Origin: Enhydrobacter sp.
Lineage (GTDB): Bacteria; Pseudomonadota; Alphaproteobacteria; Reyranellales; Reyranellaceae
Direction: 5' to 3'
Assembly (NCBI RefSeq): GCF_030246845.1
Contig: NZ_CP126889.1
Span: forward strand, 5,017,001 to 5,081,000
Length of the DNA stretch: 64,000 nt
The position numbers and the translations under genes were made by a program. Shown here one piece after another: positions 35,626-41,825 of this stretch. Each line of letters opens with the position of its first letter. The first letter of the stretch is position 1. Below the pieces are notes generated by a model, which did not search any database, was not told where the DNA came from, and saw only the letters and a list, made by a program, of their open reading frames with translations.

Positions 35626-36087
35626 GTGTCTTATGTCAAATCGGTCCTTCAACCGGGCGAAAGCATCAGGGCGATCGGCAAGCTGCACTGGATCATCTTT
35701 ACCCGTGCCCTCGTGCTGCTGGCGGCCGGCCTCGTTCTCCTGATCTACGGCGGCACCCTGTCCCAGCGACTCGGCCGGCTGGTCGAGCTCGTCGGCTGGC
35801 TGGTGCTGGCGATGGGCGTCCTGGCGCTGCTCCACGCCTGGTTCATCCGCTGGATCACCGAGCTTGCTGTCACGAACTATCGGGTGATCTACAAGCGCGG
35901 GTTCCTCAGCCGCTACACGGTCGAGATGCACATGAACAAGATCGAGACGATCGATGTCGAGCAGTCGATTCTCGGCCGGCTGTTGGGCTTCGGCACCATC
36001 CGCCTGCGCGGAACCGGACAGGGCATCGAGAACCTGAGGCAGATCGCGGCCCCGCTCGAGCTGCGCAGCGCCATCATGGCGCACTGA
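35626..36087 (+). CDS. PH-domain membrane protein (bPH2/YdbT type)
   Basis: The 153-residue protein starts YVKSVLQPGESIRAIGKLHW and has two membrane helices (ALVLLAAGLVLLIYG and LVGWLVLAMGVLALLHAW). It then has the bacterial PH-like core ELAVTNYRVIYKRGFLSRYTVEMHMNKIETIDVEQSILGRLLGFGTIRLRGTG. Proteins of this family sit in the inner membrane with the PH domain in the cytoplasm. Function unknown. It ends 6 bases from the convergent livF stop. Confidence 0.82.
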   Translation: MSYVKSVLQPGESIRAIGKLHWIIFTRALVLLAAGLVLLIYGGTLSQRLGRLVELVGWLVLAMGVLALLHAWFIRWITELAVTNYRVIYKRGFLSRYTVEMHMNKIETIDVEQSILGRLLGFGTIRLRGTGQGIENLRQIAAPLELRSAIMAH

Positions 36088-36093
36088 TCGGCG

Positions 36094-36840
36094 TCAGGAC
36101 TGCAGCGGCGCGCGGGCGCCCTGACCGAAATAGGCCTGCTCCAGCCGGTTCGGGAGATCGGCCTCGTCGGTGCGGGCCTGCAGCACGATCGAGCCACGCG
36201 CCAGGGCATAGACGCGGTCCGCGGTCGCCAGGGCCTTCTCGATGAGCTGCTCCACCAGCAGGATCGCCGTCCCGCTCTGGCGAAGCTGCGCTGCCGCGGC
36301 GAGAACCCGGTCGACCAACACCGGCGACAGGCCGGCCGACGGCTCGTCCAGCATCAGAAGCCGCGGCCGCCGCACCAGGCCCTGTGCGACCGCCAGCATC
36401 TGCTGCTGGCCTCCGGACAAGGTGGCGGCGAGGTCACCGCGCTTCTCGGCGATCTCCGGAAAGAACGCCAGCGCCTCTTCCGCCTGCCGCATCCGCACGG
36501 CCCGCGGCAGGCCGTAGCCGGCGAGCAGCAGGTTGTCGAACACCGAAAGCTGCGTGAAGACACGATGCCCCTCGACCACATGGACGAGGCCGGCCGACAC
36601 CGTCTCCCTCGGCCCCGCTGCACTCATGTCCCTGCCGGCGAAGCGGACGCGGCCGCTCCTCGGCAGCAATCCCGAGATCGCCCGCAACAGCGTCGTCTTG
36701 CCCGCACCGTTCGGCCCCAGCAGCGCCACGGCCTCTCCCGCCCCGATCGACAAGTCGATGCCCCTAAGCACGCCGATCTTGCCGTAGCCGGCCGACAGGC
36801 CGGTCACCTCGAGCAACGGATCACGCGCCGAGATAGGCAC
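36094..36840 (-). CDS. livF: Branched-chain amino-acid ABC transporter ATP-binding protein (LivF type)
   Basis: The 248-residue ATPase has Walker A GPNGAGKTT, signature LSGGQQQM and Walker B RLLMLDEPSAGLSP. The GTG start at 36840 lies inside the end of the livMG frame (20-base overlap), which gives the expected N-terminus (PLLEVTGLSAGYGKIGVLRG) and translational coupling. It powers uptake together with the LivG half of the fusion. It is the last gene of the operon. Confidence 0.92.
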   Translation of the reverse strand: MPISARDPLLEVTGLSAGYGKIGVLRGIDLSIGAGEAVALLGPNGAGKTTLLRAISGLLPRSGRVRFAGRDMSAAGPRETVSAGLVHVVEGHRVFTQLSVFDNLLLAGYGLPRAVRMRQAEEALAFFPEIAEKRGDLAATLSGGQQQMLAVAQGLVRRPRLLMLDEPSAGLSPVLVDRVLAAAAQLRQSGTAILLVEQLIEKALATADRVYALARGSIVLQARTDEADLPNRLEQAYFGQGARAPLQS

Positions 36841-38620
36841 TGACCACCTCCCGATGCGAGCGGATTTCTTCCGGCGTGCCGGCGGCAAGCACGCGACCCA
36901 GATTCAGCACGGTCACCCGGTCGCAAATGTCGAAGATGAGATCGGCGTGGTGCTCGACCAGGAGCACTCCCGTCCCGGCCTGGCTGATCGCCTTGATAAG
37001 GGCCCCGAGCCGACGGATCTCCTCGGCCGACAGGCCGGCGGCGGGCTCGTCCAGCAGCAGGCAGACAGGCCGCAGCATCAGCCCGCGCGCGATCTCCATG
37101 AAACGCAATTCGCTGTGCTGCAGGCGATCGGCGCGCACGTCGGCGAGCGACTCGAGGCCCACGGCGGAAAGCGCCAGCATCGCCCGCTCCCGCAACGATG
37201 CCTCGTCGCGGCCGTGGCGCGGCAAGGTAAGCAGCGATTCGACGAAGGAGGCCCGGCCGTCGATCGTGCCGCCGAGCATCACGTTCTCCATCACCGAGGC
37301 GCTGCCGATCAGCCGCGGCGTCTGGAAGGTGCGGGCGATGCGGCAGCGCGCCCGCAACTGCGGTTGGCGCGGCGGCAGCACAGTCCGATCCAGTCGCACC
37401 TCCCCGGCCTGCGGCGCGTAATAGCCCGAGATCACGTTCAACGTCGTGGTCTTGCCGCTGCCGTTGGGGCCGATCAAGCCGTGCACCTCGGCCGACCTCA
37501 CTGCGAGATCGAGACCCGTGATCGCCTGCACGCCGCCGAAGCCGAGCGAGATGCCCGACAGCGCCAGCGTCTCGCCGCGCCCGTTCCCGAGCAACTGCGT
37601 CAGCAGCGCCGGCCGCGGCACGATCTCGCGATGCTGCTCGAGCGGACGACGGTTCTTGAAGTCGATCAGGTCGGCAATGCCGCCCGGCACGACCAGCACG
37701 ATCGCCAGGAGAAGGGCCGCATAGAGGAAGGTCGACCACGCGACGAGCGGCGCCGCGACCTCGGGCAACGCCGTCAGGAGCAAGGTGCCGAGCAGCGGCC
37801 CGAGAACCGACCCGCGGCCGCCGATCAGGATGGCGATGAAGAACAGGACCGACAGGTCGAAGGTGAAGGCGTCGGGCGTGATGTAGGACTGCAGCGAGGA
37901 GAAAAGCCCGCCGGCCACGCCCGCCAGGGCGCCGCTGAACAGGAAGACCGTCATCAGCAGGCGCGGCTTGGCGATGCCCGACGCCTCGGCCGCGACCTCC
38001 GCGTCGCGGATCGCCACCAGGGCGCGACCGAAGCGGCTGGCGGCAAGATTGATCGTCATCCATGTGCAGAGCGCGGCGAGCAGAAGGCAGAGGTAGTAGA
38101 GGCCCCAGTCGCCGGTGAACGGCCAGCCGAACAGCGGACCGGCCACGCCGACGCCGCCGCCGGTCACGCTCTTCCAGGCCAGCGCCACCTGGGTGACGAT
38201 GGTCGAGAAGCCGAGGGTGGCCATGGCGAAATAGAAGGTCCGCAGCCTGAGCGCCGGCAGGCCGACGATGAGACCGAATACCGCCCCGATCGCGGCCGCC
38301 GCGACGAGGGCGAGGTAGGGCGAGACCGCCGGCATCGCCGTTCCCGCCGTCATCGCGCTCGTCGTGTAGGCGCCGAGGGTCAGCAGGCCGACCCAGCCGA
38401 TCGCGATCTGGCCGGCAAAGCCCACCACCATGTTCAATCCCGCGACCAGCACCCAGTAGACGCACGCGCGGGTGACGATGACGCCCCAGTAGGAATCGCC
38501 CAGCAGCGGAAAGGCCAGGCCGGCCAGCCCCAGCGCCAGGAGCGGCGCCGCCCTCTCGACGCGGGCAAGCCAGCCCGACCGATGCACCGCGGCGGCCATG
38601 ACCGTCTGCGCCACTCCCAT
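36821..38620 (-). CDS. LivM-LivG fusion: permease plus ATP-binding domain
   Basis: The 599-residue protein has an N-terminal permease of about 330 residues with eight or more helices (VYWVLVAGLNMVVGFAGQIAIGWVGLLTLGAY is the LivM hallmark). It is fused to an ATPase domain with Walker A GPNGSGKTT and Walker B VCLLLDEPAAG. The ABC signature is LQHSELR, where LivG proteins usually have a glycine at the Ser position. The ATG overlaps the livH TGA (TGATG). Such fusions are known in alphaproteobacteria. The substrate is a branched-chain amino acid or a related organic acid or amide. Confidence 0.9.
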   Translation of the reverse strand: MGVAQTVMAAAVHRSGWLARVERAAPLLALGLAGLAFPLLGDSYWGVIVTRACVYWVLVAGLNMVVGFAGQIAIGWVGLLTLGAYTTSAMTAGTAMPAVSPYLALVAAAAIGAVFGLIVGLPALRLRTFYFAMATLGFSTIVTQVALAWKSVTGGGVGVAGPLFGWPFTGDWGLYYLCLLLAALCTWMTINLAASRFGRALVAIRDAEVAAEASGIAKPRLLMTVFLFSGALAGVAGGLFSSLQSYITPDAFTFDLSVLFFIAILIGGRGSVLGPLLGTLLLTALPEVAAPLVAWSTFLYAALLLAIVLVVPGGIADLIDFKNRRPLEQHREIVPRPALLTQLLGNGRGETLALSGISLGFGGVQAITGLDLAVRSAEVHGLIGPNGSGKTTTLNVISGYYAPQAGEVRLDRTVLPPRQPQLRARCRIARTFQTPRLIGSASVMENVMLGGTIDGRASFVESLLTLPRHGRDEASLRERAMLALSAVGLESLADVRADRLQHSELRFMEIARGLMLRPVCLLLDEPAAGLSAEEIRRLGALIKAISQAGTGVLLVEHHADLIFDICDRVTVLNLGRVLAAGTPEEIRSHREVVSAYLGA

Positions 38621-39477
38621 CACACGCGCCGCGAGGCGGTGGCGCCCGCGAGCCCCTCCGGCCGCAGAAGCAGCACCGCGATGAACACCACGAACACGGC
38701 GACGGCGGCGAAGATGCCGCCGACCAGGAAGTTGGCCGCCTGCTGGAAGAGGCCGAGCGCCAGGCCGCCGATCACCGCGCCGCGGTTGCTGCCCATGCCG
38801 CCCAACGCCACCGGCACGAAGCCGTAGAAGCTCAGGATCGCCTGATTGCCGAAGAACGCGAGCAGCATCTCGCCCCCGGTGAAGCCCGCAAGCGTGCCGA
38901 TGACGCCGGCGAGCGCGAAGCTCGCCAGGCGCAGTCGCTGCTCGGGCAGGCCGAGCGCCCGCGCGGCATAGCTGTCCTCGGCGATGGCGAGAAAGGCGCG
39001 CCCGACCAGGGTGCGGCGGTACAGCAATTCCAAGCCGACGATCGTCGCCGCGCAGGCCAGCAGCGGCAGCCAGAATTGCTGGTCGAGCCAGCCCGAGCCG
39101 ATCGGGATGAGGCGCGGGAAGGGTTGCGCCTCGGTGCCCCATTCGATGGCGGTGAACTGCTGGACGAGCAGGGCGAAGGCGAGCGTCGACAGCACGTAGA
39201 GATGCTGCTCGATGCTCTTCAGCACCGGCCGCACCGCGACGATCTCGGTGACGACGCCGAGCATCGCGCCGCCGGCCAGCACGAGGACGAAGCCGACGAT
39301 GGCCGGCAGGCCGAGCTTGTCGATGAACAGGGCGCCCAGCACGCCGCCCAGCATGCCCAGCATCCCCGCAGTGAAGCTGAATACGCGCGAAGCCGAGAAC
39401 ATCACGTTGTACGTGATGCCGACCAGCGCATAGACCGCTCCTACCGCCAGGCCGTAAGAGACGATCGATTCGAGCAT
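38620..39477 (-). CDS. livH: Branched-chain amino-acid ABC transporter permease (LivH type)
   Basis: The 285-residue membrane protein contains the LivH signature YGLAVGAVYALVGITYNVMFSASRVFSFTAGMLGMLGG and later RAFLAIAEDSYAARALGL. Eight or more helices are seen. Its start codon lies 3 bases from what was the stop codon of the binding-protein gene. The IS630 insertion now puts 1.15 kb of reverse-oriented DNA between them, so upstream coupling is lost. No good ribosome-binding site precedes the ATG. Confidence 0.9.
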   Translation of the reverse strand: MLESIVSYGLAVGAVYALVGITYNVMFSASRVFSFTAGMLGMLGGVLGALFIDKLGLPAIVGFVLVLAGGAMLGVVTEIVAVRPVLKSIEQHLYVLSTLAFALLVQQFTAIEWGTEAQPFPRLIPIGSGWLDQQFWLPLLACAATIVGLELLYRRTLVGRAFLAIAEDSYAARALGLPEQRLRLASFALAGVIGTLAGFTGGEMLLAFFGNQAILSFYGFVPVALGGMGSNRGAVIGGLALGLFQQAANFLVGGIFAAVAVFVVFIAVLLLRPEGLAGATASRRV

Positions 39478-39483
39478 AGGCTA

Positions 39484-40629
39484 GTGGACCAAATCTAACA
39501 TTTCGATTCGCGAGGGGATTCCCGATCGGGCTCGCGTATGCGAGTCAGAGGAATGCACGAGCGAACGAACTTTCAGTTGAATGCCACGGACCGTGGCGAG
39601 CTGGAGGCGGTGGTGGCCAACCGCAACAGCCCGCAAAAGCACGTCTGGCGGGCAAGGATCGTTCTTTTGACCGCCGACGGGCATGGCACTGCCGAGATCA
39701 TGCGTGCCACCGGCAAGGCCAAGACGGTGATCTGGCGCTGGCAGGAACGGTTCGGGGCGGAAGGTGCAGCGGGGCTGTGGCGCGACAAGACACGCCCGTC
39801 GCGCATCCCGCCGCTCCATCCCGAGGTGGCCGAGCACGTTGTCGCCATGACGCTGGCAGGGCCGCCGTCGGGGGCGAGCCATTGGACCGGCCCGGCGATG
39901 GCCGAGGCGGCCGGGATCAGCGTCAGCTCGGTGCAACGGATCTGGCGCGCCCATGGCCTGAGGCCGCATCTGGTCCGCCAATTCAAGCTGTCCAATGATC
40001 CGCAGTTTGCCGCCAAGCTCAGGGACATCGTCGGGCTGTACGTCAATCCGCCCGACCACGCCATCGTGCTCTCGGTCGATGAAAAGAGCCAAATCCAGGC
40101 GCTGGACCGCACCCAGCCGGGACTGCCGATGAAGAAGGGGCGCGCCGGCACCATGACCCACGACTACAAGCGCCATGGCGTCACCACTCTGTTCGCCGCC
40201 CTCGACGTCCTGGAGGGCAAGGTTATCGGCCAGTGCATGAAGCGCCATCGTCATCAAGAGTTCATCCGCTTCCTCAACGCCATCGATGCAAGGACACCCA
40301 GGAGAAAGACGATCCACGTCATCATCGATAACTATGCCACCCACAGCCATCCCAAAGTGATGCAATGGCTCGACAAGCATCCGCGGTTCGCCTTCCACTT
40401 CACCCCAACGTCGGCGTCCTGGCTCAATGCCGTCGAGGGCTTCTTTGCAAAGCTCGCGAACAAACGCCTCAAGCGCGGCGTCTTCCGATCTCTTCGCGAA
40501 CTCAAAGACGCCATCCACTGCTTCCTTCGCCTCCACAATGCAGACCCAAGGCCCTTCATCTGGACAAAGGACCCCAACAAAATCATCGCCGCCGTCAAAC
40601 GAGGGCACCAAGTGTTAGATTCCATCCAC
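39484..40629 (+). mobile_element. IS630-family insertion sequence
   Basis: The element is 1146 bp with terminal inverted repeats GTGGACCAAATCTAACATTT (39484-39503) and, at the right end, the reverse complement of GTGGATGGAATCTAACACTT (40610-40629); 16 of 20 bases match. Both ends are flanked by the dinucleotide TA (39482-39483 and 40630-40631), the target duplication of the IS630/Tc1 group. It carries one intact transposase gene. It lies within the stop codon of the binding-protein gene of a branched-chain amino-acid operon. Confidence 0.92.
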
Positions 40630-40632
40630 TAG
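39538..40632 (+). CDS. IS630-family transposase
   Basis: The 364-residue DDE transposase has an N-terminal helix-turn-helix region (GTAEIMRATGKAKTVIWRWQERF) and catalytic acidic residues in SVDEKSQIQALDRTQ, VIIDNYATH and SWLNAVEGFF. The frame is intact. The stop codon TAG at 40630-40632 is not in the element. Its T and A are the duplicated target site and its G is host sequence. Another start codon, at the HERTNF segment six codons in, is possible. Confidence 0.93.
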   Translation: MRVRGMHERTNFQLNATDRGELEAVVANRNSPQKHVWRARIVLLTADGHGTAEIMRATGKAKTVIWRWQERFGAEGAAGLWRDKTRPSRIPPLHPEVAEHVVAMTLAGPPSGASHWTGPAMAEAAGISVSSVQRIWRAHGLRPHLVRQFKLSNDPQFAAKLRDIVGLYVNPPDHAIVLSVDEKSQIQALDRTQPGLPMKKGRAGTMTHDYKRHGVTTLFAALDVLEGKVIGQCMKRHRHQEFIRFLNAIDARTPRRKTIHVIIDNYATHSHPKVMQWLDKHPRFAFHFTPTSASWLNAVEGFFAKLANKRLKRGVFRSLRELKDAIHCFLRLHNADPRPFIWTKDPNKIIAAVKRGHQVLDSIH

Positions 40633-41825
40633 CTGGCGTAGCCCGGAGCGAGGTTGAAGGCGCCGTCGCGCAGGGAGTTGACCTCGCACATCACGACCTC
40701 GTCGTCCTGGAAGCCGTTGTGCTGCTGGGGCGTGAAGGTGATGTCGCCGTAGACCCCGGGCCAGTCCTTGAGCTTGTTCCAGTAGTCCGTGATCTCCTTG
40801 GGCGAGCTGCCGGCCGCCTTGACCGCGTCCGCCATCATATGGATGCCGTCGTAGCCGAGCGCGATCCACCAGAGCAGCGTGTCGCCCATGTCGATCTTGG
40901 CCTTGTGCAGCTTCTCCACGAACTCGGCGGCGCGCGGCGGCAGCTTGCCGTCCTTGCCGAAGCAGACGTTGCGGAAGTTGTTGGAGTAGACCTTGTTCCA
41001 GTACTCGGGCTTTTCCAGCAACGCCTTCGTCTGTCCCGATCCCAGGGTGGTCTGGCCGACGATCGGCACGTCCCACTCCATCTTGCCGCGCGTGTTGCAG
41101 ATGCGGGACAGGAAGCCCGCATTGACGCTCCAGGGCATGATGGCCTCGGCGCCGGCCTCGCGCATGCGCAGCATGTCGGGCTTCAGGTCGGGGTTGGCGG
41201 CGTCGATATTGGCCTGGTAGACCACCGTCGCGCCCTTCTCCTTCAGCATCGGCACATAGGCCTGCACGGAGGCCGTGCCGTAGCCCGTGGTGTCGCTCAC
41301 CACGGCCACCTTCTTTCGCTTCAGGACATCGACCACGTAGCGGTTGGCCGCGGCGCCGATCTGCTGATTGGTCGGCGCGTCGCGAAAGCACATCGGGTAT
41401 TTCTTGACGTCGGTCAGCGAATCGACCCAGCACGGATGCAGTTGAGGAACGCCGTCGCGTGCCACCAGCGGCACCGCCGCCAGGGATTCGCCGGAATTGA
41501 GCGGTCCCCAGACGATATTCACTTTCTGCCGTTTGGTGAGCTCGGCGGCGCCGTTGACGGCCTTGGTGGGATCGCTCTGTGTGTCGCGCACGATCAGCTC
41601 GATCTTGCGTCCATTGACGCCGCCCGCGGCGTTGATCTCGTTGACGGCAAGCTCGGTGCCGCGATTGATGCCGATGCCGGTCGAGGAACTGGGCCCGGTC
41701 AGTGCCGGCAGATAGCCGATCTTGATCGGCTCGGGTGCCGCGATGGCGGGACTCGCAAGGCCGCCCGCCAGCGACAAGGCGCCAGCGGCGGATCCGGACA
41801 GGACTTGGCGACGCTTGATCGACAT
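40629..41825 (-). CDS. Branched-chain amino-acid-type ABC transporter substrate-binding protein
   Basis: The 398-residue periplasmic binding protein of the LivJ/UrtA type starts with a twin-arginine-like signal (SIKRRQVLSGSAAGALSLAGGLASPAIA). The mature protein begins EPIKIGYLPALTGPSSSTG. Its own stop codon TAG (40629-40631) now consists of the last base of the IS630 element plus the TA target duplication, so the protein sequence is unchanged. The ligand is unknown; LivJ relatives bind amino acids, amides, urea or aromatic acids. Confidence 0.9.
   Translation of the reverse strand: MSIKRRQVLSGSAAGALSLAGGLASPAIAAPEPIKIGYLPALTGPSSSTGIGINRGTELAVNEINAAGGVNGRKIELIVRDTQSDPTKAVNGAAELTKRQKVNIVWGPLNSGESLAAVPLVARDGVPQLHPCWVDSLTDVKKYPMCFRDAPTNQQIGAAANRYVVDVLKRKKVAVVSDTTGYGTASVQAYVPMLKEKGATVVYQANIDAANPDLKPDMLRMREAGAEAIMPWSVNAGFLSRICNTRGKMEWDVPIVGQTTLGSGQTKALLEKPEYWNKVYSNNFRNVCFGKDGKLPPRAAEFVEKLHKAKIDMGDTLLWWIALGYDGIHMMADAVKAAGSSPKEITDYWNKLKDWPGVYGDITFTPQQHNGFQDDEVVMCEVNSLRDGAFNLAPGYAS

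Follow-up and report, generated by a model that had tools for sequence, protein, structure and literature searches.

An IS630-family element with CTAG target sites in the stop codon of an ABC transporter gene of Enhydrobacter sp.

Introduction

In Enhydrobacter sp. (assembly GCF_030246845.1, contig NZ_CP126889.1) an IS630-family insertion sequence is located exactly in the stop codon of a gene encoding an ABC substrate-binding protein, directly upstream of the permease gene of the same operon. The stop codon is preserved, and the locus therefore raises the question of whether such an exact hit is a coincidence or follows from the target specificity of the element, and what the insertion means for the genes behind it. 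The window analysed here is the whole stretch of 64,000 nucleotides from position 5,017,001 to 5,081,000 of the contig, and all coordinates refer to it. The reading that we prefer, to which we give a probability of about 85%, is that a CTAG-specific element of the IS630 family, of recent arrival and amplified to eight identical copies, entered the binding-protein gene at its C-TAG stop, and that the stop was rebuilt in the process.

The insertion sequence and its copies

The element comprises 1146 bp (39484-40629, plus strand), with G as its first base and C as its last. It is flanked by two copies of the target TA, one on the livH side (39482-39483) and one on the binding-protein side (40630-40631), which together with the neighbouring bases form CTAG at 39481-39484 and at 40629-40632. 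The left terminal inverted repeat, GTGGACCAAATCTAACA (39484-39500, plus strand), pairs with the right one, which reads GTGGATGGAATCTAACA on the minus strand (40613-40629); the two ends match by eye at 14 of 17 positions. When the element and one TA are removed, the empty site reads GCCAGC TAG CCT ATG on the minus strand, and the binding protein encoded from it is the present binding protein, with zero residues altered.

A first-pass annotation of this DNA had placed an IS630 element in the TA of the TAG stop of the binding-protein gene, and our coordinates agree with this to the base. It had also stated that the TA was duplicated and the stop kept with an unaltered protein, which the empty-site reconstruction bears out, and that the last plus-strand base of the element is C, as we also find. 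With a first base G and a last base C, the TAG stop would also have been kept if the element had entered in the opposite orientation.

Eight copies of the element were found in the genome (5.44 Mb, one contig), with no mismatches among them and with a two-base TA duplication at each of the eight. The genome also holds a distant 212-bp fragment of the element. No close copy was detected among the best seven candidates per genome in 60 further genomes sampled from the genus, where the best matches reached 75% and 74% along most of the element. The identity of the copies and the absence from these sampled genomes suggest that the element probably arrived recently and then multiplied. A search against Rfam gave no match between positions 36000 and 45000 of the window.

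CTAG as the target

All eight copies are inserted in CTAG, with CTA at the left end and TAG at the right end. The frequency of this sequence was estimated from 20 evenly spaced stretches of 20 kb, representing 400 kb of the genome. They contain 5155 TA sites, 126 of which are part of CTAG, compared with 452 CTAGs expected from a first-order estimate, so that CTAG is depleted in the sample.

Related elements were examined at 78 loci, the search having retained the best 80 of 506 relatives. For 70 of these loci the ends could be placed, and 37 of the 70 come from one single genome, that of Alpha proteobacterium BAL199. In 70 out of 70, C precedes the left TA, a base that was unforced by the search pattern; the TAG on the right of these relatives was imposed by it. 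The eight loci left out were L030, cut at a contig start, L042, with a split match, L052 and L065, where the right flank is not TA, and L057, L067, L069 and L078, which have altered ends. Since the junctions read CTA-G...C-TAG, CTAG is restored at both ends and a TAG stop is rebuilt in either orientation. One CTAG becomes two CTAGs with each insertion. At two BAL199 loci, L027 and L046, head-to-tail tandem copies of the related element with a common junction CTAG were observed.

Stop codons as targets

Of the 126 CTAGs in the 400-kb sample, 33 coincide with the TAG stop of a called gene. For TAs outside CTAG, the share at stops is 1.9%. The targets of the eight copies correspond to four TAG stops, two intergenic sites and two sites within genes. 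The latter two (L138 and L143) lie in a recombinase-like gene and a PIN-domain-like gene, both named by eye, and the PIN-domain-like gene has a phage-like neighbourhood. For the related copies of BAL199, the classification covered 37 out of 38 loci, with L042 left out. Five of these copies are at stops, among them L027, which adjoins a tandem copy; 24 are intergenic and eight internal. The other CTAGs in the same BAL199 flanks are at stops in 10 of 174 cases.

The gene classes were obtained with a home-made gene caller, retrained with a codon-position filter, for which the liv genes alone served as benchmark. A first caller, trained on the longest frames, was dropped; it chose antisense shadows and missed known liv genes, and in its output the site in the window was internal and 21 of the 126 CTAGs were at stops. 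Loci L010 to L012 and other single copies were left out of the classification. Rhizobium sp. L51/94, with one of six copies at called stops, and Mesorhizobium sp. AR07, with one of five, were unused, the gene coverage of these genomes being 0.56-0.58.

Four of eight copies in TAG stops would be in keeping with an element that favours stop codons as such, via the termination context or the ends of genes. We consider this highly unlikely, since at least four of eight copies at stops have a probability of about 0.13 once the CTAG rule is given (about 3e-5 if any TA could be used), most of the BAL199 copies lie elsewhere, and none of the eight copies is found in a TAA stop. Stop codons as a preferred class were rejected on the BAL199 counts and on the probability given CTAG, and the predicted target of the element is CTAG and not the stop codon. 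The exact stop-codon hit described in the first-pass annotation thus stands as a location; as an exceptional accident it does not, since all eight copies are in CTAG and about one quarter of the sampled CTAGs are TAG stops.

The transposase and its borrowed stop

The element encodes a transposase of 364 aa (39538-40632, plus strand), which scores 265.4 bits against the family model NF033545 (cut-off 100) and 74.5 bits against Pfam DDE_3 (cut-off 28.6). DEKS, DNYATH and NAVEGFF were located in its translation by eye as candidate sites of the DDE catalytic residues. Within the element this frame meets no stop and remains open through the final base; the TAG that closes it (40630-40632) consists of the duplicated TA and one G of the host. 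At the right junction, the transposase gene and the binding-protein gene are convergent and both close in one palindromic CTAG.

Among the 70 relatives, for which TAG at the right end was an entry condition, 65 have an uninterrupted frame that is closed by the target TAG, and in five the frame contains one internal stop. In two further related copies, L052 and L065, the right end is followed by TCTCATGT or a similar sequence and not by TAG, so that the transposase frame has no borrowed stop there.

The host operon and the start of livH

The ABC substrate-binding protein (398 aa, 40629-41825, minus strand; Peripla_BP_6, 182.8 bits) has as its stop a TAG (40631-40629) in which TA is the duplicated target and the third base is supplied by the terminal base of the element. 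The permease gene labelled livH (285 aa, 38620-39477, minus strand; BPD_transp_2, 84 bits) is intact, with its ATG at 39477-39475, preceded by the TAG-CCT spacer retained from the empty site (39478-39483, minus strand). Further downstream, a single frame encodes a fusion of the transporter's second permease with its first ATPase (36821-38608, minus strand, start codon approximate), and the operon ends with a second ATPase of the livF type (36094-36888, minus strand). The genes downstream of the element are all open.

Peripla_BP_6, BPD_transp_2 and ABC_tran, all above cut-off, are the domains of a Liv-type ABC transporter at the family level. The scores against the NCBIfam equivalogs LivH (45.3 bits, cut-off 379) and UrtB (55.7 bits, cut-off 250.3) lie below the cut-offs, and livH is therefore used as a family-level label only, with no substrate assigned. 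The search with livH gave 32 matches in the genome. The next best is about 31% identical, and a close spare copy was thus not found; related transporters, however, are plentiful.

A GGAGG is present at the start of the binding-protein gene. Before livH, no Shine-Dalgarno core was found, whether in the present sequence or in the empty site, and 14 of the 19 relatives described below likewise show none. The earlier statement that livH has no good ribosome-binding site is thus correct, and this was already so before the insertion. As the Shine-Dalgarno core is missing both before and after the insertion, the likely loss is that of translational coupling, with possible polarity. Most likely, ribosomes normally reach the livH start through stop-start coupling, and the element would have interrupted it. 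The 1.15 kb of antisense DNA may also exert polarity on livH, and reduced expression of the permease after the insertion is plausible. The first-pass annotation went further, to a binding protein that may have little permease; against this stands the open livH of four relatives with inserts in the gap.

Orthologous loci in the genus

The comparison set comprised 19 genomes of the same genus with a livH orthologue at least about 81% identical and the binding-protein gene upstream. None of the 19 orthologous loci contains the IS630-family element. The gap between the binding-protein gene and livH is exactly 3 nt in 11 of them, 4 nt in two and 0 nt in two, and four have inserts. This agrees with the spacing of 3 bases that had been proposed for the locus before insertion. 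The orthologous stop is TAG in 16 genomes, TAA in two and TGA in one, and by eye 13 of the 16 TAG stops are part of CTAG. The two nearest relatives (livH 96% and 95% identical) use TAA, so that we infer the TAG before insertion from the genome's own junction.

In the four relatives with inserts of about 90-165 nt in the gap, livH is open. One of them, genome G005 (contig 180, loci L095 and L145), carries a MITE-like element of 158 bp exactly in the orthologous stop, with the junctions CTA-G...C-TAG. Three more near-full-length copies of this element (82-83%) are present in G005, two with CTAG at both ends (L149 and L157) and one in which the left T is lost (L153). In L095, a CTAG-flanked element of another kind has thus entered the corresponding codon independently. 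As inserts, L103, L105 and L106 have palindromic dispersed repeats. These were rejected as stop-codon insertions, since their cores (10-120 and 12-69) leave about the first 10 bases of the gap free, and L095 alone was counted as an exact stop-codon insertion among the gap inserts of the relatives. The repeat family of L103 and L106 has about 80 matches each in genomes G012 and G032, and 17 in the genome of the window.

Proposed course of events and alternatives

According to the reading that we prefer, the element would recognise CTAG, and the TA of the C-TAG stop would have been used as the insertion point. The stop may have been struck since CTAGs are scarce inside genes, and the insertion may have survived since no protein was damaged. 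Formerly, livH would have been started by ribosomes that terminate 3 nt upstream, at the end of the binding-protein gene, and this coupling would have been lost. Expression of livH would then need transcription reading through about 1.15 kb and independent initiation. With no ribosome-binding site before livH and the coupling lost, the permease output is probably lowered.

The insertion might instead be neutral for expression, if livH starts by itself and is transcribed by read-through or from a promoter in the left end of the element or in the binding-protein gene. A scan of the element's minus strand found no strong terminator (two weak terminator-like sites, where shuffled sequences gave 1.0, sd 1.0), and the open livH of the orthologues with gap inserts is also consistent with neutrality. 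Nevertheless, we regard neutrality as somewhat unlikely, as the Shine-Dalgarno core is absent before livH and the untranslated stretch is several-fold longer than the inserts of the relatives. The scan found no promoter-like site either, though it also misses any transposase promoter, hence this result carries little weight. Alternatively, coupling could have been re-created by translation of an antisense frame. Such a frame is open on the minus strand from 40611 to 39481 (376 codons) and closes in the TAG on the livH side, 3 nt before livH. However, open antisense frames are ordinary in these elements, with a median longest run of 309 codons in the 70 relatives, because TTA, CTA and TCA are rare codons in the sense frame, and the predicted frame begins with TTG. 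The 376-codon frame is probably a chance result of codon use, and its role in coupling is very improbable. Even less probable is an assembly artefact in which one of eight identical copies was misplaced. Reads cannot distinguish such copies internally, but the genes on either side form a single operon with a collinear arrangement in 19 relatives, the TA duplication agrees, and the genome is one contig.

Relation to known elements and implications

Tenzen and Ohtsubo are said to have described in 1991 that IS630 targets the TA within 5'-CTAG-3'. The element in the window resembles that IS630 in its IS630-family transposase, its TA duplication and the position of the TA inside 5'-CTAG-3', but it is a separate element of alphaproteobacteria. 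ISAzs31 of Azospirillum sp. B510, annotated as IS630-like, has 74.6% DNA identity in a partial match covering 44% of the query. An element of Bradyrhizobium manausense SZCCT0118 (L010) has a transposase 85% identical, CTAG at both ends and a frame closed by the target TAG, but is located in a different host and at a different site. The target of IS630 is named as 5'-CTAG-3' in PMC6811581. For ISY100 of Synechocystis, PMC2170065 describes insertion almost exclusively at TA dinucleotides; as an IS630/Tc1/mariner cut-and-paste element that duplicates TA it is similar to the element described here, whereas all copies of the latter are in CTAG. Neither a target-supplied stop nor a preference for stop codons was found in the accessible portions of the mostly open literature searched (PMC3189936, PMC2170065, PMC6811581, PMC5009743, PMC2229807, PMC6267812), and a link to stop codons, a rebuilt CTAG or a borrowed transposase stop was likewise not met in those portions of the IS630 literature. 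CTAG targeting by IS630 is already published, and priority for the stop-codon rule is not claimed.

As predicted from these sites, CTAG targeting and the G...C ends make TAG stops safe landing sites. Tentatively, and with a rather low likelihood in our view, the ends of this subgroup could be tuned to the target in such a way that amber stops are a haven, with scarce CTAGs enriched at stops in high-GC genomes and unrelated elements converging on them. If true, the G...C ends and CTAG would rebuild TAG, give the transposase its stop and yield two fresh targets. The element would spread at little cost to host proteins, and other CTAG-flanked elements, unrelated to it, would reach the same stop across species. 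Independently of this tentative reading, the apparent coincidence becomes a rule: in DNA where CTAG is rare and often found in stops, a CTAG-specific element is expected to enter genes frequently at the last codon while leaving the protein as it was. An annotation would list both genes as intact, and a regulatory split of the operon could go unnoticed. The locus also provides a clean natural experiment on stop-start translational coupling.
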